Position numbers and translations under genes: made by a program. The notes under the pieces were generated by a model, which saw only the letters and a list, made by a program, of their open reading frames with translations, made no database searches and was not told the origin of the DNA. From positions 310,001-374,000 of the forward strand of contig NZ_VORA01000001.1 in the NCBI RefSeq assembly GCF_008477545.1: DNA of 64,000 nt. The letters run 5' to 3'. Shown here one piece after another: positions 2,484 to 12,861 of the stretch (position 1 is its first letter; the number at the start of each line of letters is the position of its first letter). The stretch is from Roseibium aestuarii. Its GTDB lineage: Bacteria; Pseudomonadota; Alphaproteobacteria; Rhizobiales; Stappiaceae.

Positions 2484-3875
2484 TCAGATCCGGCCCGTGC
2501 GCTTCAGCTCCGCATAAGTTTCGTCCAGCGTCTTCTTGGCGGTCGCGGCCAGAAGGTCGGCTTCCTCGTGGGAGAGGACCAGCGGCGGGGAGATGATCAT
2601 GCGGTCGGAGACCGCGCGCATGACGAGGCCGTTCTTGAACGAGATGTCCCGGCAGATCGTCCCGACCGTGCCCTCGTCGGCAAACTTCTTCGTGCGGTCG
2701 CCCTTGACCGGCACCAGCTCCAGCGCGCCGACCAGACCCACCATGCGGGCTTCGCCCACCAGAGGATGATCGCCGAGCGCCTGCCAGTGCTTCTGCAGAT
2801 AGGGGCCGATGTCGTCGCGAACCCGCTCCACCAGCTTTTCCCGTTCCATGATCTCCAGGTTTGCGAGCGCTGCCGCCGCACAGGCCGGGTGACCGGAATA
2901 GGTGTAGCCGTGGTAGAACTCGCCGCCCTTGTCGATGATGCCCTCGGCCACCCGGTCGGAGACCATCACGCCGCCGATCGGTAGATAGCCCGAGGACAGG
3001 CCCTTGGCGATGGGCATCAGGTCCGGCTTGAGGTCGTAGTAATCCGAGCCGAACCAGCTTCCCAGCCGCCCGAAGCCGCAGATCACCTCGTCCGCGACGA
3101 AGAGAATGTCACGCTCCTTGAGGATGCGCTTCACTTCAGGCCAGTAGGTTTCCGGCGGAATGATCACGCCGCCGGCCCCCTGGATCGGTTCGGCGATGAA
3201 GGCAGCCACCTTGTCCTCGCCGATCTGGTCGATGGCTTCCTCCAGCTTGCGGGCCACCGCAATGCCGAAGTCTTCCGGGCTCATGTCGCCGCCTTCACCG
3301 AACCAGTAGGGCTGGTCGATGTGGTGGACACCCGGCACCGGCAGGTTGCCCTGTCCGTGCATGGCCTTCATGCCGCCGAGGCTGGTGCCGGCGAGCGTGG
3401 AGCCGTGATAGCCGTTCCAGCGGCCGATGATGACCTGCTTCTCCGGCTTGCCCATCTGCGCCCAGTAGTGACGCACCATGCGGAAGACCGTGTCATTGGC
3501 TTCCGACCCGGAGGAGCAGAAGAACACCCGGTTCATGTGGTCAGGCGCAAGCTGGGCCAGCTTCTCGGCAAGGGCGACCACCGGCGGGTGGGTCGTCTTG
3601 AAGAAGGTGTTGTAATAGCTCAGCTCGCACATCTGCTTGTGCACCGCGTCGGCGATTTCCTTGCGGCCATGGCCAACCTGCACGCACCACAGGCCGGCCA
3701 TGCCGTCCATGATCCGGTTGCCGTCGCTGTCCGTCAGCCACACACCGTCTGCCTGCGTGATGATGCGGCTGCCCTCGGCATTCAGCTCCTTCGTGTCGCT
3801 GAAGGGATGGATGTGGTGGGCTGCATCGGCCGCGCGCAGGGCGGCAGTGGGATAGATGTTGGACACCGCGGTCAT
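2484..3875 (-). CDS. Class III PLP aminotransferase, putrescine/polyamine:pyruvate type
   Basis: A 463-residue fold-type I omega-aminotransferase. The Schiff-base lysine is K291 in P-I-A-K-G-L-S-S-G-Y; the cofactor-binding S-S-G-S-E-A-N-D is at 121-128, and A-D-E-V-I-C-G-F-G-R around 261-270 holds the PLP-contacting aspartate. Length and motifs match the SpuC/putrescine-pyruvate aminotransferase group. It follows a gamma-glutamylpolyamine synthetase-like gene by 34 bases on the same strand, so it probably takes the free amine of a polyamine or a related amine to the aldehyde. Beta-alanine or GABA as amino donor cannot be excluded. Confidence 0.88.
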   Translation of the reverse strand: MTAVSNIYPTAALRAADAAHHIHPFSDTKELNAEGSRIITQADGVWLTDSDGNRIMDGMAGLWCVQVGHGRKEIADAVHKQMCELSYYNTFFKTTHPPVVALAEKLAQLAPDHMNRVFFCSSGSEANDTVFRMVRHYWAQMGKPEKQVIIGRWNGYHGSTLAGTSLGGMKAMHGQGNLPVPGVHHIDQPYWFGEGGDMSPEDFGIAVARKLEEAIDQIGEDKVAAFIAEPIQGAGGVIIPPETYWPEVKRILKERDILFVADEVICGFGRLGSWFGSDYYDLKPDLMPIAKGLSSGYLPIGGVMVSDRVAEGIIDKGGEFYHGYTYSGHPACAAAALANLEIMEREKLVERVRDDIGPYLQKHWQALGDHPLVGEARMVGLVGALELVPVKGDRTKKFADEGTVGTICRDISFKNGLVMRAVSDRMIISPPLVLSHEEADLLAATAKKTLDETYAELKRTGRI

Positions 3876-3909: not shown

Positions 3910-5325
3910 TCAGACGTTGAGAAGCAGGTATTCCCGCTCCCACGGACTGATCACGGACATGAAGGTTTCGAATTCTTCCTGCTTGATGGCGCGATAGGTC
4001 GCGACGAAGCGCTCGCCGAACACGTCGACCATCTCCTGGCTGCTTTCCCAGAGCGCAAGCGCCTCGGTCAGGCCGCGCGGCAGGGCCTTCTGCTTGTCGC
4101 TGCAGTCGCCTGCCTGGGGCTCGTCCGGGCTCAGACCCTTGGTCATGCCCAGATAGCCGCAGGCCAGCGAGGCGGCGATGGCGAGATACGGGTTCACGTC
4201 GGAGCCCGGCACGCGGTTCTCGAGACGGCGCGCCTGGGCATTGGAGAAGGGCACGCGCAGGCCCACGGTCCGGTTGTCATAGCCCCAGTAGACGTTCACC
4301 GGCGCGGTCGAGTTGCGGGCAAAGCGGCGATAGGAATTGACGTAGGGCGCCATGAGCGACGTGACCTGCGGCAGGTAGGTCTGGAAGCCGGCGATGAACG
4401 CCCGGAAGTCGCTCGTCTCGTTGCCGTCCGCATCGGAGAAGATGTTGCGTCCGCTTTCCATGTCCACCACCGACTGGTGAATGTGCATGGCGGAGCCGGG
4501 CTCGTTCGACATGGGCTTGGACATGAAGGTCGCATACATGTCGTGGCGCAGGGCCGCTTCCCGGATGGTGCGCTTGAACAGGAACACCTGGTCGGCCAGT
4601 TCCAGCGGATGGCCATGACGCAGGTTGATTTCCATCTGCGCTGCGCCTTCCTCGTGGATCATCGTGTCGATTTCCAGGCCCTGCTTCTCGGACAGGTCGT
4701 AGATGTCGTCGATGAGATCGTCGAACTCGTTCAGGGCAGAGATGGAATAGGACTGGCGGCCCACTTCCGGGCGACCGGACCGGCCGGTCGGGCGCTCCAG
4801 CGGGTAGTCCGGATCCGTGTTCGGCTTGACCAGGTAGAACTCGATTTCCGGCGCCACAACCGGCTTCCATCCCTTGTCCTCGTAGAGCGACAGGATGCGG
4901 CGCAGCACGTTGCGCGGCGCGGTTTCCACCGGCGAACCGTCGCGGGAATAGGCATCATGGATCAGCTGGGCGGTGGGGTCGGTTTCCCACGGCACGGCGG
5001 TCAGGGTCGAGTAGTCCGGCCGGAAGTAGAGATCGCCGTCGATCGGGTTGTGCTGGAAGCGGTCGTCGTCTTCCGGATAGTTGCCGGAAATCGTCTGGGC
5101 GAAGATGGAGGCCGGCATGGTCATCACCGGGCCGGAGAAGAACTTCTCCGTCGGCATCATCTTGCCGCGTGCGACCCCGGAGAGGTCGGGCACGATGCAC
5201 TCGATGTCCTGGATGTTGCGGGCATGCAGCCAGCTGCGGGCGGCGTCCTCGTCGGCAACACCGCGCAGGCTTTCCATGGCGGAATCGGAGGAGAAAGAAG
5301 AGGAGGGCAAGGAATCGGTCGTCAC
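3910..5325 (-). CDS. Glutamine synthetase family protein, gamma-glutamylpolyamine synthetase-like
   Basis: A 471-residue GlnA-fold ligase. Metal/ATP-site motifs are in order: A-P-E-I-E-F-Y-L, E-E-G-A-A-Q-M-E-I-N, G-S-A-M-H-I-H-Q-S and N-R-V-P-G-S-D-V-N-P-Y. The C-terminus, S-P-W-E-R-E-Y-L-L-L-N-V, is typical of PuuA/SpuI enzymes, which attach glutamate to putrescine or other amines using ATP, and not of housekeeping glutamine synthetase. It heads a two-gene unit with the aminotransferase. A second, distinct paralogue lies on the other strand at 6743-8128. The same palindrome precedes both, so they are likely controlled together. Confidence 0.88.
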   Translation of the reverse strand: MTTDSLPSSSFSSDSAMESLRGVADEDAARSWLHARNIQDIECIVPDLSGVARGKMMPTEKFFSGPVMTMPASIFAQTISGNYPEDDDRFQHNPIDGDLYFRPDYSTLTAVPWETDPTAQLIHDAYSRDGSPVETAPRNVLRRILSLYEDKGWKPVVAPEIEFYLVKPNTDPDYPLERPTGRSGRPEVGRQSYSISALNEFDDLIDDIYDLSEKQGLEIDTMIHEEGAAQMEINLRHGHPLELADQVFLFKRTIREAALRHDMYATFMSKPMSNEPGSAMHIHQSVVDMESGRNIFSDADGNETSDFRAFIAGFQTYLPQVTSLMAPYVNSYRRFARNSTAPVNVYWGYDNRTVGLRVPFSNAQARRLENRVPGSDVNPYLAIAASLACGYLGMTKGLSPDEPQAGDCSDKQKALPRGLTEALALWESSQEMVDVFGERFVATYRAIKQEEFETFMSVISPWEREYLLLNV

Positions 5326-5512
5326 GTGCAGAGCTCCAGTTCGTGCTGTTTATCAGCCTGCCGGTCGCGAGCCTGTCGCGCCCGGATCGGGCCGTGAGGT
5401 CTTCCAGTTCCTTGCATCACCGGTGTCCCGGTCGGGTGCCGCACCCTCGCGCAAGGCGTGATCCTTGCAGCAAGGAGCGAGCCCGAAGGCATCGGCATGA
5501 CAGTAGCCATAA

Positions 5513-5526
5513 TTTGTGATCACAAA
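5513..5526. promoter_or_regulatory. Perfect palindrome TTTGTGATCACAAA, candidate GntR operator
   Basis: A perfect 14-base palindrome 188 bases upstream of the minus-strand synthetase gene. Its 12-base core, TTGTGATCACAA, recurs at 6623-6634 upstream of the plus-strand synthetase gene. A GntR-family gene lies between them. The half-sites abut with no spacer, so this is not a CRP site, which would need TGTGA-N6-TCACA. Confidence 0.6.
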
Positions 5527-5622
5527 AAATGCAAGGTCGTGTTGTCTGATCCGGAGGTCAGGTGAGGCACATCGCGGTCCGGACCATCCGGGGTGCGCCG
5601 TCTTTTGAGCCATCCGGCGCGC

Positions 5623-6381
5623 TCAGGGGTTGGGCAGACCGTCCCGTCCGAGCATGCCCATGCCATCCGAAATGTCGGAGGCGATGGCCTGGCGCAAGGC
5701 GGTGGCGTCGCGGGTATCGATCGCCCGCAGGGCCTGCTTGTGCCAGTCGACCAGGTTGGCAGTGCCCACCCGGCCGTAGACCATCCGCATGTAGGGGCCG
5801 AATTGCAGCCACAGGCTCTCCACCAGGGGAAGGAGGATCTGCGAGCCGGAAGCCCGGTACATGTGGAAGTGGAATTGATGATTGAGCGTCATGTAGCCGA
5901 CCGCGTCACCGCTTCCCAGACACCTGTCGATGTCCAGATCGATGCGCAGAAGCCGGTCCGCATCCGCCTTGGTGAGGTTCGGCAGGGCCATGGCGGCCAC
6001 TTCCGGTTCCAGCAGCAGGCGGGCCTTGAGGATTTCGTCGAACCGGGCGCCGGTCATCTCTGGCACCTGCACCCGGCCATTCGACTTGACCACCAGCGCA
6101 TGTTCGGCGGCCAGCCGCTGGATCACCTCGCGCACCGGCATCGGGCTGACCCCGAGTTCGGCGGCGAGGCCGCGCAGGGTGACGGCCTTGCCGGGAATGA
6201 AACGTCCTGTCAGGAGCGAGGAGCGGATGGCCTGTTCCACCTGGGCACGGGTCGCGCCACGCGGCACCGCGGTGCCGGCGGGAGCTGCTCCCGGGACGGA
6301 GGGATCAGACTTGCGTTCGCCGTTGCCACTGGGGGAGGTGCTGCCGGTCGGCGGGGCAGCGGGCTTATGCGACGGCTCCAT
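5623..6381 (-). CDS. GntR family transcriptional regulator (FCD-type ligand domain)
   Basis: 252 residues. A low-complexity Pro/Ser/Gly-rich N-terminus of about 45 residues precedes the winged helix-turn-helix, recognisable by L-R-G-L-A-A-E-L-G-V-S-P-M-P-V-R-E-V. The C-terminal part is alpha-helical and of FCD type, with an N-H-Q-F-H-F-H-M-Y-R motif whose histidines would bind a metal or carboxylate ligand. It sits between two synthetase-like genes whose upstream regions share one palindrome, so it is the obvious candidate regulator of the polyamine/amine genes. A different ligand, for example a gamma-glutamyl intermediate, is possible. Confidence 0.87.
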   Translation of the reverse strand: MEPSHKPAAPPTGSTSPSGNGERKSDPSVPGAAPAGTAVPRGATRAQVEQAIRSSLLTGRFIPGKAVTLRGLAAELGVSPMPVREVIQRLAAEHALVVKSNGRVQVPEMTGARFDEILKARLLLEPEVAAMALPNLTKADADRLLRIDLDIDRCLGSGDAVGYMTLNHQFHFHMYRASGSQILLPLVESLWLQFGPYMRMVYGRVGTANLVDWHKQALRAIDTRDATALRQAIASDISDGMGMLGRDGLPNP

Positions 6382-6606
6382 TCAACTCCTTGCAGGCTGG
6401 ACGTGAGAGCCGGATTGCTTCACGCCATGAGGCGGTCTTGCCCTCATTTGACAGAAGGCCAGCCGATTTGTCTACGGATCTTGCCGTTTCTTCCCTATTG
6501 TTCTTGCGCTCCAGGACTGACCGTCACCCCTGAGACGGGTCCTGGCAATGGCCTGGAACTCCGGCGCCGTGACCCTGATCGCCTCTCCTTTAGGCAGGCC
6601 TAAAAC

Positions 6607-6635
6607 TTGACAGGGCCTTTCTTTGTGATCACAAC
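6607..6635 (+). promoter_or_regulatory. Candidate -35 box and second GntR operator before the plus-strand synthetase
   Basis: A consensus TTGACA at 6607-6612 is followed by TTTGTGATCACAAC at 6622-6635, whose inner 12 bases are a perfect palindrome identical to the core at 5514-5525. The palindrome lies where a -10 element would be, so a bound repressor would block polymerase. No clean -10 hexamer is visible. The rest of the 361-base gap between the GntR gene and the synthetase holds nothing I recognise. Confidence 0.55.
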
Positions 6636-6742
6636 TTGAGAGCCTTCTCGGAAAAAACGTCCGATGCGGGCACTCCCGACACGCCTTCGGGCAGGGGCAA
6701 GACGCAGAAGCAACAGACAAGAACAGCGGAACAGGCCTTCAT

Positions 6743-8128
6743 ATGGTGGATCTGCCACAACTCACTCTCGAACACCCTGACGAGTCCGGATGGAAGCAGG
6801 GCGTCGAAGCCTTTCTGGCAGAGCATCCCGACCTGGACACGCTGGAAGTCGTCCTTCCCGACACCAATGGCGTGCTGCGCGGCAAGTGGCTTCCCGGCAG
6901 TGCGGCCCGCAAGGTCTTTGAACAAGGCGTGGCCTTTCCCTTCTCGCTCTTCGGGCTGGATGTCTGGGGCCGCGAGGTCGAGAGCACCGGCATGCACATC
7001 GAGACGGGCGACAGGGACGCCCTGTGCTGGCCGATCCCCGAAACCCTGAAGCTGGTGCCCTGGACCGACCGCAAGACGGCGCAGGTCCTTCTTTCCATGT
7101 ATGACCGGGACGGTGCGCCCTTCATGATGGATCCGCGCCATGTGCTTCAGCGCATGTGCGACCGGCTGGCCCAGCACGGGCTTTCGGCCACCTGTGCCTT
7201 CGAGCTGGAGTTCTATCTTCTCGAGGAATCCGAAGGCGGGTGGGGGGATCACCCCAAGCCGCTCTTCTCCACCCATCTCGGGCCGGCACGCCAGAACATG
7301 TATGCGTTGTCTGATCTGGAGGCGTTGATGCCGCTGGTCGACGACCTGCGCCGGGCAGCCGAATTGCAGAACATTCCCGCCGACGCCGCCGTGTCCGAAG
7401 CCGCGCCCGGTCAGTTCGAGCTCAATCTTCACCACCGCCGCGATCCGCTGCGCGCCGCCGATGACGCCGTGCTGCTGCGCCGCCTGGTGCAGGGTGTCGC
7501 GCGCAAGCACAATCTCAAGGCGTCCTTCATGGCCAAGCCCTTCGTGGAATGGCCGGGCAACGGCATGCACGTGCATGTCTCCATGGAGGACAAGAACGGC
7601 AACATCTTCGCCTGTCCCGACGAAGGCAGCACCCGTCTGGGCCATGCCATCAGCGGCCTGCTGAAGACCATGCCCGAGGCACTTCTGCTCTTCACCTCGA
7701 CCTTCAACGGCTTCCGCCGGATGCAGCCGGGATCCTACGCGCCGACGTCCATCTGCTGGGGATACGACAACCGCTCGGTCGCCCTGCGCGTGCCTGCCAG
7801 CAGCGCCGAGGCGACCCGCATCGAGCACCGAATCGCCGGCGCCGACGCCAATCCCTATTTTGTTCTGGTTGGTGTGCTGGCCGGAATGCTGGAAGGGCTG
7901 GAAAGCCGGCAGCCAGCTCCGCCGCCGGTCATCGGCAATGCCTATGAGGCGACCCACAAGCGCCTGACGCCCTGGATGGACGAGGCGATCGACGCTTTCG
8001 CCGCCTCGGAGCGGATGAAAACCGCGGTGGGACCGGAAATGCACAAGGTTCTCACGGAGATCAAGCGGGAGGAGCTCAACGAGTTCGGTCGCGAAATCTC
8101 CTCGCTGGAACGACAGACCTACCTTTAG
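6743..8128 (+). CDS. Glutamine synthetase family protein, second gamma-glutamylpolyamine synthetase-like paralogue
   Basis: A 461-residue GlnA-fold ligase with motifs F-E-L-E-F-Y-L, E-A-A-P-G-Q-F-E-L-N-L, G-N-G-M-H-V-H-V-S and H-R-I-A-G-A-D-A-N-P-Y. It is clearly different from the minus-strand paralogue, for instance ending S-S-L-E-R-Q-T-Y-L. The ATG at 6743 follows an A/G-rich stretch. It lies upstream of a Pot-type importer on the same strand, so it probably glutamylates an imported polyamine or related amine. Two paralogues suggest different substrates, such as putrescine versus spermidine, or an aromatic amine; this is inference. Confidence 0.87.
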   Translation: MVDLPQLTLEHPDESGWKQGVEAFLAEHPDLDTLEVVLPDTNGVLRGKWLPGSAARKVFEQGVAFPFSLFGLDVWGREVESTGMHIETGDRDALCWPIPETLKLVPWTDRKTAQVLLSMYDRDGAPFMMDPRHVLQRMCDRLAQHGLSATCAFELEFYLLEESEGGWGDHPKPLFSTHLGPARQNMYALSDLEALMPLVDDLRRAAELQNIPADAAVSEAAPGQFELNLHHRRDPLRAADDAVLLRRLVQGVARKHNLKASFMAKPFVEWPGNGMHVHVSMEDKNGNIFACPDEGSTRLGHAISGLLKTMPEALLLFTSTFNGFRRMQPGSYAPTSICWGYDNRSVALRVPASSAEATRIEHRIAGADANPYFVLVGVLAGMLEGLESRQPAPPPVIGNAYEATHKRLTPWMDEAIDAFAASERMKTAVGPEMHKVLTEIKREELNEFGREISSLERQTYL

Positions 8129-8219: not shown

Positions 8220-8278
8220 GCAAAAGCCACAACAAGCCGACAACGGCGGGCAACAGTCCTTCTTGAGTGGAGTTTGAG

Positions 8279-9367
8279 ATGCACAAGTTTCTGATGATGA
8301 GCGTTGCAGCTCTTGGCCTCATGGGTGTGTCTGCCCATGCCCAGGACCGAGTGGTCAACGTCTACAACTGGTCCGACTATATCGACGAATCCATCCTTGA
8401 GGATTTCACCAAGGAAACCGGGATCAAGGTCCAGTATGACGTCTTTGACAGCAACGAGGTCCTCGAGACCAAGCTGCTGGCCGGTGGCACCGGCTATGAC
8501 GTGGTCGTTCCGACCGGTACCTTCCTCGGCCGTCAGATCCAGGCCGGTGTCTTCCAGAAGCTCGACAAGTCGAAGCTGCCGAACCTGACGCACATGTGGA
8601 AGGACATCGAGGCCCGTCTGCAGAAGTATGACGCCGGCAACGACTACGCCATCAACTACATGTGGGGCACCACCGGCATCGGCATCAACGTCGACAAGGT
8701 GAAGGCTGCCCTGCCGGATGCACCGCTGAACAGCTGGGATCTGGTCTTCAAGCCGGAAAACGCTGCCAAGCTCGCCGATTGCGGCATCTTCGTCCTCGAT
8801 ACCCCGGAAGAAATCGTTCCGGCAGCCCTGAACTACATGGGCATGGATCCGGATTCCAACGACCCGGCGGACATCGAGAAGGCTGGCGAGCTGCTCAAGA
8901 CCATTCGCCCCTACATCCGCAAGTTCCACTCCTCCGAGTACATCAACGCTCTCGCCAACGGCGACATCTGCCTGGCCGTGGGTTGGTCGGGTGACCTGCT
9001 GCAGGCCCGTGACCGTGCGGCCGAAGCCAACAACGGCGTGACCGTGGAATACATCATTCCGAAGGAAGGCGCCCTGATGTGGTTCGACAACATGGCCATC
9101 CCGGCGGATGCCCCCCATGTGGACGAAGCCCACGAGTTCCTCGACTACATCATGCGTCCGGAAGTGATCGCCAAGGCCTCGAACTACGTGTTCTACGCCA
9201 ACGGCAACAAGGACAGCCAGGAGCTTCTCGACAAGGAAGTCTTCGAAGATCCGGCAATCTATCCGGACGAAGAGACCGTGAAGAAGCTCTACACCGTGTC
9301 GACCAAGTCGGCCAAGGTGAGCCGCGTCCAGAACAAGGTCTGGACCTCGCTCAAGAGCGGCCAGTAA
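8279..9367 (+). CDS. potF: Polyamine ABC transporter periplasmic binding protein
   Basis: About 362 residues, beginning with a Sec signal peptide (M-H-K-F-L-M-M...A-H-A-Q, cleavage near residue 22). The mature start, V-V-N-V-Y-N-W-S-D-Y-I-D, is the signature of PotD/PotF/SpuD proteins that bind putrescine or spermidine. The ATG at 8279 is preferred over an in-frame ATG 12 bases upstream because it gives a proper signal peptide and better spacing to a purine-rich stretch. The ATPase and two permease genes follow after a long gap. PotF-like (putrescine) rather than PotD-like is a guess. Confidence 0.9.
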   Translation: MHKFLMMSVAALGLMGVSAHAQDRVVNVYNWSDYIDESILEDFTKETGIKVQYDVFDSNEVLETKLLAGGTGYDVVVPTGTFLGRQIQAGVFQKLDKSKLPNLTHMWKDIEARLQKYDAGNDYAINYMWGTTGIGINVDKVKAALPDAPLNSWDLVFKPENAAKLADCGIFVLDTPEEIVPAALNYMGMDPDSNDPADIEKAGELLKTIRPYIRKFHSSEYINALANGDICLAVGWSGDLLQARDRAAEANNGVTVEYIIPKEGALMWFDNMAIPADAPHVDEAHEFLDYIMRPEVIAKASNYVFYANGNKDSQELLDKEVFEDPAIYPDEETVKKLYTVSTKSAKVSRVQNKVWTSLKSGQ

Positions 9368-9927: not shown

Positions 9928-11097
9928 TTGGCTAAGAAAGCGATCGGGCCGGTTCGCCGGACATTCACTCCGTGGGAAGACAGTTCGGCGAAGCCTTTCA
10001 TCGAATTCCGCAATGTGACCAAGCGGTTCGGTGATTTCACGGCGGTCGACAACCTCAGCCTCAAGATCTACGAGCGCGAGTTCTTCGCCCTGCTCGGCGG
10101 ATCGGGCTGCGGCAAGACGACCATGATGCGCATGCTCGCCGGCTTCGAGAGCCCGACCGAGGGCCAGATCCTTCTCGACGGACAGGACATGGCCGGTGTA
10201 CCGCCCTACAAGCGCCCGGCCAACATGATGTTCCAGTCCTATGCGCTGTTCCCGCACATGAGCGTGGAAGGCAACATTGCCTTCGGTCTCAAGCAGGACG
10301 GCATGGCAAAGGCGGACATCGCGGCGCGCGTGGCGGAGATGCTGCGTCTCGTGAAGCTCGAGCCCTTTGCCAAGCGCAAGCCGCATCAGCTTTCCGGCGG
10401 TCAGCGCCAGCGCGTGGCGCTCGCCCGCGCCCTCGCCAAGAGGCCGAAGGTCCTGCTGCTCGACGAACCGCTCGGCGCGCTGGACCGCAAGCTGCGCGAG
10501 GAAACCCAGTTCGAGCTGATGAACATTCAGGAAGAGCTGAAGACGACCTTCCTCATCGTGACCCACGACCAGGAAGAGGCCATGACCGTGGCCGACCGCA
10601 TCGCGGTGATGGATGCGGGCAAGATCATGCAGGTCGCGACCCCGGCCGAAATCTATGAGACCCCGAATTCACGTTTCGTGGCCGACTTCATCGGCGACAT
10701 CAACCTCATGGAAGCCCGTGTGGTCTCCACCTCCGAGGATGGTACCGTGATGCAGGCCGTGGCTCTCGGCTGCCAGATCGAGACCTCCCAGACCACGACG
10801 GCCGCTGTCGGCGACACGGTCTGGTATGCGGTGCGGCCCGAGAAGATCCGCATCGAACTGGGCGAGACCGAACACGCCGAAGGCACCACGGCGGTCAATC
10901 AGACCAACGGGGAAATCTGGGACATTGCCTACATGGGCGATGTGTCGATCTTCCACTCCCACGTGGGCAACGGTAATGGGGTCAGCATCCGCTCGACTGT
11001 CGCCAACGTCACCCGTCTGGTGGAACGTCCGCTGACCTGGGACGACAAGGTGACCCTGAGCTGGGGCCGCGACGCCGGCGTCATCCTGACCAACTGA
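9928..11097 (+). CDS. potG: Polyamine ABC transporter ATP-binding protein
   Basis: 389 residues from a TTG start preceded by a purine-rich AGGGGGTAGGG stretch. Walker A G-G-S-G-C-G-K-T-T is at 57-65, the signature L-S-G-G-Q at 155-159, Walker B L-L-L-D-E at 176-180, and a C-terminal TOBE-type domain at about 290-375. This is the CUT1/Pot importer layout. It energises uptake through the two permeases that follow 22 bases later. The non-ATG start and the long gap upstream suggest expression below that of the binding protein. Confidence 0.9.
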   Translation: MAKKAIGPVRRTFTPWEDSSAKPFIEFRNVTKRFGDFTAVDNLSLKIYEREFFALLGGSGCGKTTMMRMLAGFESPTEGQILLDGQDMAGVPPYKRPANMMFQSYALFPHMSVEGNIAFGLKQDGMAKADIAARVAEMLRLVKLEPFAKRKPHQLSGGQRQRVALARALAKRPKVLLLDEPLGALDRKLREETQFELMNIQEELKTTFLIVTHDQEEAMTVADRIAVMDAGKIMQVATPAEIYETPNSRFVADFIGDINLMEARVVSTSEDGTVMQAVALGCQIETSQTTTAAVGDTVWYAVRPEKIRIELGETEHAEGTTAVNQTNGEIWDIAYMGDVSIFHSHVGNGNGVSIRSTVANVTRLVERPLTWDDKVTLSWGRDAGVILTN

Positions 11098-11119: not shown

Positions 11120-12043
11120 ATGAGCCAATCACAATCAAAGCCCCGTCGGTCGCTTGGGTCCTGGGCCCTGATCGCAGTCCCCTATCTGTGGCTGCTGGTC
11201 TTTTTCCTCGCGCCCTTCCTGATCGTCTTCAAGATCTCCCTGTCGGAGGTCGCCGTGGCGATCCCGCCCTATCTTCCGGCCTTCGATCTGGCCGAGGGCT
11301 GGGCCGGGCTGGTGGACAGCGTCTCGCAGTTTTCCTTCGACAACTACCTCTGGCTGACCGAGGACGACCTTTACTGGAAGTCCTATCTCTCCAGCGTGGT
11401 CATCGCGACGATCTCCACCTTCATTGCCCTGCTGGTGGGATATCCGATCGCCTATGGCATGTCCCGGGCGCCCAAGGCCTGGCGCGCCACGCTGCTGATG
11501 CTGATCATCCTGCCCTTCTGGACCAGCTTCCTGATCCGCGTCTATGCGTGGATCGGCATCCTGAAGAACGAGGGCCTGCTGAACCAGTTCCTGCTCTGGC
11601 TCGGCGTGATCGATCAGCCGCTGGTGATCCTCAATACCAACATCGCGGTCTATATCGGCATCGTCTATTCCTACCTGCCGTTCCTGGTGCTGCCGCTCTA
11701 TGCCACCCTGGAGAAGCTGGACGAGACCCTGCTCGAAGCCGCCGAAGATCTCGGCTGCCCGTCCTGGCAGGCCTTCTGGAAGATCACCTTCCCCCTGTCG
11801 CTTCCGGGCGTCGTGGCTGGCTGCTTCCTCGTCTTCATTCCGGCGGTGGGTGAATTCGTGATCCCGGATCTGCTCGGCGGGTCCAACACGCTGATGATCG
11901 GCAAGACCCTGTGGGTGGAGTTCTTCGCCAACCGCGACTGGCCTGTATCGTCGGCGGTGGCGGTGCTGCTGCTGCTGCTTCTGGTCGTCCCGATTGTACT
12001 CTTCCAGAACCACCAGCAGAAACTGCAGGAGAGGCAGTCATGA
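11120..12043 (+). CDS. potH: Polyamine ABC transporter permease (PotH-like)
   Basis: 307 residues with six predicted membrane segments and the cytoplasmic EAA loop (E-A-A-E-D-L-G-C-P near residue 206) that docks on the ATPase. The longer periplasmic region between the first two segments is typical of PotB/PotH. The start follows a G-G-A-G-C-A-A-G-G-A-G type ribosome-binding region. Its stop overlaps the start of the next permease as ATGA, so the two are translationally coupled. Confidence 0.9.
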   Translation: MSQSQSKPRRSLGSWALIAVPYLWLLVFFLAPFLIVFKISLSEVAVAIPPYLPAFDLAEGWAGLVDSVSQFSFDNYLWLTEDDLYWKSYLSSVVIATISTFIALLVGYPIAYGMSRAPKAWRATLLMLIILPFWTSFLIRVYAWIGILKNEGLLNQFLLWLGVIDQPLVILNTNIAVYIGIVYSYLPFLVLPLYATLEKLDETLLEAAEDLGCPSWQAFWKITFPLSLPGVVAGCFLVFIPAVGEFVIPDLLGGSNTLMIGKTLWVEFFANRDWPVSSAVAVLLLLLLVVPIVLFQNHQQKLQERQS

Positions 12044-12861
12044 GAAACGGTCCGTCCTGGTTCAACGTCACGTCCCTGGTGCTCGGCTTCTCGTTCCTCT
12101 ACCTGCCGATCGTGCTGCTCGTGGTGTTCTCCTTCAACGAATCCCGGCTGGTCACGGTCTGGGGCGGGTTCTCCACCAAGTGGTATGGCGAGCTCTTCCG
12201 CAACACCCAGCTTCTGGATGCGGCGAAGGTCACCCTTGAGGTCGCCTTCCTCTCCGCCTCTTGCGCCACGGTGCTGGGCACCATGGCCGCCCTCGTGCTC
12301 AACCGCTCGGGCCGGTTCCCGGGACGCAGCATGTTCTCCGGCATGATCTTCGCGCCCCTGGTCATGCCTGAGGTGATCCTGGGCTTGTCCCTGCTGCTGC
12401 TCTTCGTGGCCATCGACCAGTCGCGCGGCTTCTGGACGATCATGATCGCCCACACCACCTTCGCCATGTGCTACGTGGCCGTTGTGGTCCAGTCGCGGCT
12501 GGTCGGCTTCGACCGCTCCATCGAGGAAGCGGCCGAGGATCTGGGCAGCCCGCCCCTGAAGACCTTCTTCCTGATCACCCTGCCGCTCATCTTCCCGGCG
12601 GTGGTGGCCGGCTGGATGCTGGCCTTCACCCTGTCGCTCGATGACCTGGTGATCGCGAGCTTCACCACCGGTCCCGGCGCGACGACCCTGCCCATGAAGA
12701 TCTATTCGCAGGTCCGCCTTGGCGTGACCCCGGAGATCAACGCGGTCTGCACGATCCTGGTGGGTCTGGTGACCGTGGGCGTCATCGCCGCGTCCATCAC
12801 CACCAAGCGCCGCGAGCAGCAGCGCCAGCGCGACGAGCGTGCGGCCATCGCGCAAGGGTGA
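12040..12861 (+). CDS. potI: Polyamine ABC transporter permease (PotI-like)
   Basis: 273 residues from the ATG at 12040, which overlaps the potH stop by four bases. It has six hydrophobic segments and an EAA loop, E-E-A-A-E-D-L-G-S-P, near residues 161-171. Together with the preceding permease it forms the heterodimeric membrane channel of the importer. It is the last gene of the operon; a strong terminator follows within 32 bases. Confidence 0.9.
   Translation: MRNGPSWFNVTSLVLGFSFLYLPIVLLVVFSFNESRLVTVWGGFSTKWYGELFRNTQLLDAAKVTLEVAFLSASCATVLGTMAALVLNRSGRFPGRSMFSGMIFAPLVMPEVILGLSLLLLFVAIDQSRGFWTIMIAHTTFAMCYVAVVVQSRLVGFDRSIEEAAEDLGSPPLKTFFLITLPLIFPAVVAGWMLAFTLSLDDLVIASFTTGPGATTLPMKIYSQVRLGVTPEINAVCTILVGLVTVGVIAASITTKRREQQRQRDERAAIAQG

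Follow-up and report, generated by a model that had tools for sequence, protein, structure and literature searches.

Two regulators of gamma-glutamylation polyamine genes, PauR and PuuR, are the closest points of reference for the locus described here, and our account of both follows excerpts of the reports (PMC7901475, PMC9397018). PauR of Pseudomonas aeruginosa is described in these excerpts with a palindromic motif and 29 genes at 12 places, including pauA1, the spu operon and gabT2 (PMC7901475). Within the GntR superfamily, the excerpt of a further paper names the MocR-subfamily proteins GabR and OapR as proteobacterial regulators of GABA and putrescine genes (PMC5320631). In binding sites of the FadR subfamily GT and AC are usually 3 or 2 nt apart, a spacing that is typical rather than universal (PMC4494728), and for HutC sites the part of the same paper used here gives mostly 4 nt (PMC4494728). 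Where position 28 of the helix–turn–helix (HTH) is an arginine, a G/C pair is strongly favoured and A/T is avoided (Suvorova et al. 2015, PMC4494728). As regards the FCD domain, the excerpt of another report describes a metal site, found in some members and not universal, whose ligands are three His plus one Asp/Asn (PMC7797058).

Here we report a locus of Roseibium aestuarii in which a palindrome occurs twice and is very probably the landing site of the GntR protein encoded between the two copies, a candidate protein–site pair that recurs in many related bacteria. Coordinates refer to the window, i.e. the whole stretch of 64,000 nucleotides that was analysed, and the features of the locus are the following.

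2484..3875, minus strand: class-III aminotransferase, subfamily PRK07480 (NCBIfam PRK07480, 784 bits, above the cut-off of 510); presumably SpuC-like
3910..5325, minus strand: GS1, glutamine-synthetase-like (GS-like) ligase (Pfam Gln-synt_C; NCBIfam GGputSyn 201 bits, cut-off 650)
5513..5526, no strand: putative operator 1, TTTGTGATCACAAA, with the core TGTGATCACA at 5515-5524; upstream of the GS1-aminotransferase genes
5623..6381, minus strand: GntR-superfamily regulator of the FCD subfamily, 252 aa, the proposed repressor (Pfam GntR PF00392 52.4 bits, FCD PF07729 77.7 bits)
6607-6612, plus strand: TTGACA, possible -35 element of the GS2-pot promoter; ends 10 nt before the 12-mer of operator 2
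6622..6635, no strand: putative operator 2, TTTGTGATCACAAC, with the core TGTGATCACA at 6624-6633; in the divergent GntR/GS2 gap
6743..8128, plus strand: GS2, second glutamine-synthetase-like ligase (Pfam Gln-synt_C; NCBIfam GGputSyn 232 bits, below cut-off)
8267..9367, plus strand: PotF-like polyamine-binding protein (NCBIfam PotF 477 bits, below the cut-off of 636)
9928..11097, plus strand: PotG/PotA-like ATPase (NCBIfam potA 397 bits, above the cut-off of 355.6)
11120..12043, plus strand: PotH-like permease (NCBIfam PotH 392 bits, below the cut-off of 489)
12040..12861, plus strand: PotI-like permease (NCBIfam PotI 334 bits, below the cut-off of 476)

The gene order is the one given by the initial annotation, with a GS-like gene and gntR on the minus strand, a GS-like gene on the plus strand and the two sites flanking gntR, which is the one regulator gene between them. 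Its product combines an N-terminal GntR winged HTH (wHTH) with a C-terminal FCD domain, both scoring above cut-off, as is characteristic of the FCD (FadR/VanR) subfamily. GS1 and GS2 both possess the GS catalytic domain, and neither reaches the cut-off of the gamma-glutamylputrescine synthetase model (NF045547). Because both scores fall well below it, the term ‘polyamine ligase’ draws for either protein on the neighbouring genes, by which GS1 is probably a gamma-glutamylpolyamine synthetase. A third GS-like gene of the genome (locus L166, 6017-7462, contig C16) is accompanied by a PuuB-like oxidoreductase gene, and TTTGTGATCACTTG is located between the GS-like gene and a LacI-type gene.

The two palindromes share the 12-mer TTGTGATCACAA (5514-5525 and 6623-6634), and direct reading found both words and this common core where the initial annotation had placed them. 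Its description of a 12-base core applies to the two copies themselves; the part kept in relatives is the 10-bp TGTGATCACA. Across the 52 sites that flank orthologues of the regulator the central TGATCA is invariant, position 1 of the 12-mer is A/T in 51 and position 12 in 47. Operator 1 is located past the 3' end of gntR and operator 2 lies 241 bp upstream of the gene; the counterpart of operator 2 in the relative G159 reads ATGTGATCACAA (L128). In the genome, which comprises 4.35 Mb on 21 contigs, the 12-mer is found three times without mismatch versus about 0.04 expected when the 65% GC of the window is assumed for the whole genome, and the third copy is found upstream of another polyamine ABC operon (PotABCD-like, locus L011). 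The 10-mer occurs seven times genome-wide, compared with about 1.4 expected and a single copy of its reversed control.

The 12-mer and the GntR protein were searched separately in 150 genomes of the order. Thirty genomes (own included) contain the exact 12-mer, and 19 of these have one copy within 200 bp of the GntR match. The initial annotation had staked its proposal on the palindrome being present at orthologous loci of relatives, and there it is: 29 of the 30 closest GntR orthologues (51-100% identical, one of them rounding to 50%; own included) have a site within 300 bp at up to two mismatches, 21 have two or more, and TGTGATCACA adjoins GntR in all 15 family genomes examined (own included), in 13 of them between GntR and GS1. 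The sole orthologue of the 30 that lacks a site (L046 in G085, 55% identical; also L196) and a second locus (L153 in G202, 53%; also L195) have GS-like genes nearby and neither TGTGATCACA nor the second operator type, TTTGATCAAA, that is introduced below. Altogether 52 sites lie beside the 30 orthologues, whereas 100 simulated sets gave a mean of 0.58 and a maximum of 3. It could be argued that the two palindromes of the window are a coincidence, in so far as the window count is near chance once two mismatches are permitted (2 seen vs 1.01 expected); the rarity of exact copies across the genome speaks against this, and the excess of sites beside the orthologues already refutes it, so that its probability is negligible.

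The arrangement of the locus varies among relatives, and this variation separates the regulator from its neighbours. In G153 and G158 GntR adjoins the aminotransferase gene and has the site, and GS1 is found elsewhere in these genomes without one. A search for GS1 in 16 chosen genomes gave matches in 12 of them at E 1e-100, with 13 loci; four loci have an upstream site (G150, G152, G154 and G159) and nine have none, namely a second, 50% identical copy in G152 and eight orthologues outside the usual arrangement (0/8 in 1.5 kb upstream), which stem from genomes picked because GntR, the site or both were out of place. In one of the eight, from G118, a GntR relative with the TTTGATCAAA operator type is located near GS1. 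Since the sites stay beside a relocated GntR and are absent at a relocated GS1, it is GntR, and not GS1, that the site accompanies. Nor is the site a general companion of such regulators: the genome has 19 further loci for FCD regulators, and none shows it (0/19; 1.7-1.8 kb each).

Farther afield, TGTGATCACA is present at 10 of 20 loci of more distant FCD relatives in the order (35-49% identical). A search of the whole class with GntR gave a match in 8 of 289 genomes at E 1e-40 (own included), and outside the order the site occurs at two of nine further loci from the class-wide search (L154 and L155). Fourteen family relatives hold 39 TGTGATCACA sites, 15 of them beside GntR and 24 elsewhere, compared with seven for the reversed control; several of the 24 lie inside genes and are probably due to chance. 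Three distant clade members with a site (L188, L189 and L194, from G069, G131 and G085, respectively) adjoin other ABC transporter genes, which makes control of further pathways by this subfamily probable.

A tree of 69 FCD proteins, from which rows shorter than 195 aa and the own-genome locus L095 without a protein match were left out, unites 59 relatives in one group (support 100/99) through which the site is scattered; the ten own-genome FCD proteins outside the group lack the site and are on long branches. Some clade members without TGTGATCACA have TTTGATCAAA instead, a second operator type, and the type of operator varies with residue 70 of the protein. All 41 clade members with TGTGATCACA have Arg70, and the six with TTTGATCAAA have Phe, Gln, Gln, Leu, Val and Gln at this position. 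TTTGATCAAA was sought at first only in the 18 loci without TGTGATCACA and later in all, and it is absent from the loci with TGTGATCACA (0/41 and 0/7) and from the 19 other FCD loci (0/19). Eleven named plasmid loci, drawn from the 91 plasmid records with a match and with residue 70 read after the operators had already been seen, comprise three with TTTGATCAAA (Asn, His, Gln), four with TGTGATCACA (Arg) and four with neither; in one of the Arg70 loci (L208) TGTGATCACA lies ~425 bp from the gene. A further 40 distant loci added three with TGTGATCACA (all Arg70), three with TTTGATCAAA (Gln, Gln, Arg) and 34 with neither, two Arg70 loci with one-letter operator variants (L216 and L219) being left out of the counts. 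When these sets are pooled, Arg70 is found in 48 of 48 regulators beside TGTGATCACA and a residue other than Arg in 11 of 12 beside TTTGATCAAA, the exception being L224, which has Arg70 beside TTTGATCAAA. The relatives without Arg70 that have TTTGATCAAA near the gene are L161, L172, L178, L179, L184, L187, L203, L205, L206, L232 and L235.

On the best tree, for which the 47 clade rows (of 59) that hold either operator were used, both traits change three times, and two independent pairs have branch support, each changing in the direction expected; for a sign test of the covariation these pairs (2 supported, 3 on the best tree) are too few to reach significance. Judged from the conserved Pro at position 82, Arg70 would correspond to the published HTH position 28, and the pairing of residue 70 with the operator agrees with the published position-28 rule. 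Positions 80 and 81 of the GntR orthologues are Pro in 27 of 30 and Met in 29 of 30, respectively. Arg70 looks necessary and not sufficient for the TGTGATCACA operator, and most distant Arg70 members have no TGTGATCACA-type site. A fuller code that was set out in advance, whereby Asp236 with Arg70 gives TGTGATCACA, Asp236 with any other residue gives TTTGATCAAA and His236 gives neither, mostly failed on the 40 distant loci; this set held one His236 protein.

The same observations bear on the identity of the protein that occupies the sites. Another regulator, e.g. an XRE–cupin protein of the PauR/PuuR type, might bind them and leave GntR a bystander, and going by the excerpt on P. aeruginosa PauR does have a palindromic motif and scattered targets. 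We consider this very unlikely, because the site follows GntR when the gene order changes and the operator varies with GntR residue 70.

The initial annotation had proposed a candidate regulon with a specific operator. The sites in relatives support this, and the regulon may well be larger than had been noted, with more sites before other polyamine- and GABA-type genes. The further TGTGATCACA sites of the genome are listed below.

L011: before the PotABCD-like (second pot) operon; the third exact 12-mer
L013: ~520 bp before the likely start codon of a gene for an ornithine/diaminopimelate-type decarboxylase (lysA as best NCBIfam model, below cut-off)
L014: before a succinate-semialdehyde dehydrogenase (SSADH) gene
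L016: in the gap that separates a third pot-like operon from a MocR gene
L017: inside a permease gene; probably chance

The relative G159 has nine TGTGATCACA sites, which include both GntR-side places and counterparts of L011, L013, L014 and L016, and two of which have no counterpart in the genome of the window. At the GS1, second pot, decarboxylase, SSADH and third pot sites the two genomes share 35-72% identity over the 40-nt flanks and the core is unchanged; an alignment of the GntR-GS2 gap does not line up the two sites, though both genomes have one there. The support for second pot, decarboxylase, SSADH and third pot genes as additional candidate targets comes from two species only. An orthologue of potA2 was found in 2 of 14 other family genomes (E 1e-130), and the G152 copy lacks a site. 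A PuuB-like oxidoreductase gene of G154 (named from reading the sequence) has a site in front of it; in the own genome the stretches around four matches to PuuB-like genes contain none. Between genes that are alr-like and dnaB-like, likewise by sequence reading, the own genome has a site with one mismatch (L015 4446) and G159 an exact one (L130 3007). Locus L003 contains another perfect palindrome, GTGATCATGATCAC (1190-1203), ~30 bp upstream of where the second potA-like gene starts.

Between positions 4510 and 5034 of L013 (own genome, contig C11, ~859000) the TGTGATCACA site, a match to the ar45 sRNA and a speF leader follow one another in this order, and then comes the decarboxylase gene. 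The speF leader and the ar45 match between the site and the gene suggest that the latter encodes an ornithine decarboxylase, and double control of polyamine synthesis is possible at this locus.

The initial annotation had also drawn attention to the TTGACA that precedes the second palindrome, and it is indeed there, ending 10 nt before the 12-mer; the layout of TTGAC and operator recurs in relatives. At 34 of the 47 sites beside other orthologues TTGAC ends 8-12 nt before the 12-mer (one orientation), as against 10 occurrences in total at the other 50 offsets of the same sites. On the GS1/aminotransferase side, 11 of the 15 family loci have TTGAC(N) ahead of the 12-mer at a distance of 8-9 nt. 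The window's operator 1 is not preceded by TTGAC, and a consensus scan of positions 5300-6800 found no full sigma-70 promoter. An operator located 8-12 nt after TTGAC overlaps the spacer and the beginning of the -10 element, which is the layout of a polymerase-blocking repressor.

The site, its conservation, its linkage to GntR, its covariation with residue 70 and its position after TTGAC can be seen in the sequences themselves. On this basis we propose with good confidence that GntR binds wTGTGATCACAw and represses the GS1-aminotransferase and GS2-potFGHI genes until a polyamine or catabolite releases it; binding, reading by a dimer, repression, the direction of control and the nature of the effector are the elements that we infer. 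A GntR dimer would occupy this motif with one subunit per half-site, and each subunit would recognise the outer G/C pair through its Arg70. On operators 1 and 2, GntR would cover the spacer and the -10 part of the GS1-aminotransferase and GS2-potFGHI promoters and thereby repress them, and operator 2, upstream of gntR, may in addition let the protein control its own gene. Release from the DNA would be brought about by a polyamine or an early catabolite, which the FCD pocket probably accommodates. The same operator would extend the control to the second pot, decarboxylase, SSADH and third pot-like genes in R. aestuarii and in the close relative G159.

GntR might also bind the sites and activate transcription, or act mainly on its own gene, given that the direction of control is not readable from sequence, that the decarboxylase site is remote from the likely start codon (~520 bp) and that operator 1 of the window has no TTGAC. 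Against activation stands the distance of 8-12 nt between TTGAC and the operator that is seen in relatives (34 of 47 sites), which would put a bound protein in the way of the polymerase, and operator 1, beyond the 3' end of gntR, cannot serve gntR alone; we judge this alternative unlikely. Under repression of the polyamine genes by GntR, the reading that we prefer, a decarboxylase that makes polyamines would be an odd target for a repressor that polyamines release.

The 12-mer TTGTGATCACAA was found in no paper of the open-access collection searched. The 10-mer TGTGATCACA turned up in 12 papers, the one on bacteria having it as part of a primer (PMC12724174), with the other 11 judged by their titles and the start of their abstracts. 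Among the open-access matches listed there is no GntR/FCD polyamine regulator of this kind; one may be recorded in subscription journals or RegPrecise. Whether the locus exemplifies something broader, i.e. a large unnamed FCD subfamily that reads GT-N4-AC and took over the polyamine-control role of PauR/PuuR in Hyphomicrobiales and some other Alphaproteobacteria, with residue 70 largely setting TGTGATCACA versus TTTGATCAAA, is in our estimation evenly balanced. If true, the operators of many unstudied regulators would be predictable from protein sequence. A group labelled just ‘GntR family’ in annotated plasmid records gains a specific candidate operator and a link to a pathway, and the comparison suggests that non-homologous regulators run polyamine catabolism in different proteobacteria. 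The pairing of residue 70 and operator makes recognition testable by a single mutation.

Among the systems considered, the locus resembles those of PauR in P. aeruginosa and PuuR in Escherichia coli, as far as the excerpts describe them, in that genes for a polyamine ligase and transporters are associated with palindromic operators, a likeness judged on the genes and the palindromic form; PauR acts at several scattered places. PauR and PuuR consist of XRE and cupin domains, whereas the protein of the window is an unrelated GntR wHTH–FCD protein. A PauR-type owner of the site was sought among the ten Cupin_2 matches of the genome, and none looks like an XRE–cupin protein (Cupin_2 model only, first 90 residues of each frame). 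In contrast to the window protein, MocR proteins carry a domain that resembles aminotransferases, and for many of them the binding sites are direct repeats, according to the excerpt available for that subfamily.

Among structurally characterised proteins the nearest sequence is McbR (4p9f), and the domain make-up of the window protein is ordinary. With the FCD/FadR-subfamily regulators McbR, PS5454 (3c7j), TM0439 and Atu1419 it shares the wHTH and FCD domains and a short palindromic GT...AC operator, which is here a predicted one, and it would also share an Arg at the base-reading position 28. The predicted operator departs from the usual spacing of the FadR subfamily in being GT-N4-AC (GT-GATC-AC). 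Asn167, His171 and His214 align with the usual metal ligands and the position of the third His is taken by Asp236 in all 30 orthologues, so that the alignment gives no three-His metal site for the window protein; McbR departs from it as well. Asp236 was entertained as a mark of polyamine sensing and dropped, since its presence in 39 of 40 distant FCD proteins makes it a mark of the wider group and not of polyamines by itself. At the level of the locus, we take the spuABCDEFGH-spuI region of P. aeruginosa to be a close parallel, since its divergent operons likewise combine GS-like genes with those for an aminotransferase and a polyamine ABC transporter; unlike that region, the locus of the window has a regulator gene of another family inside.
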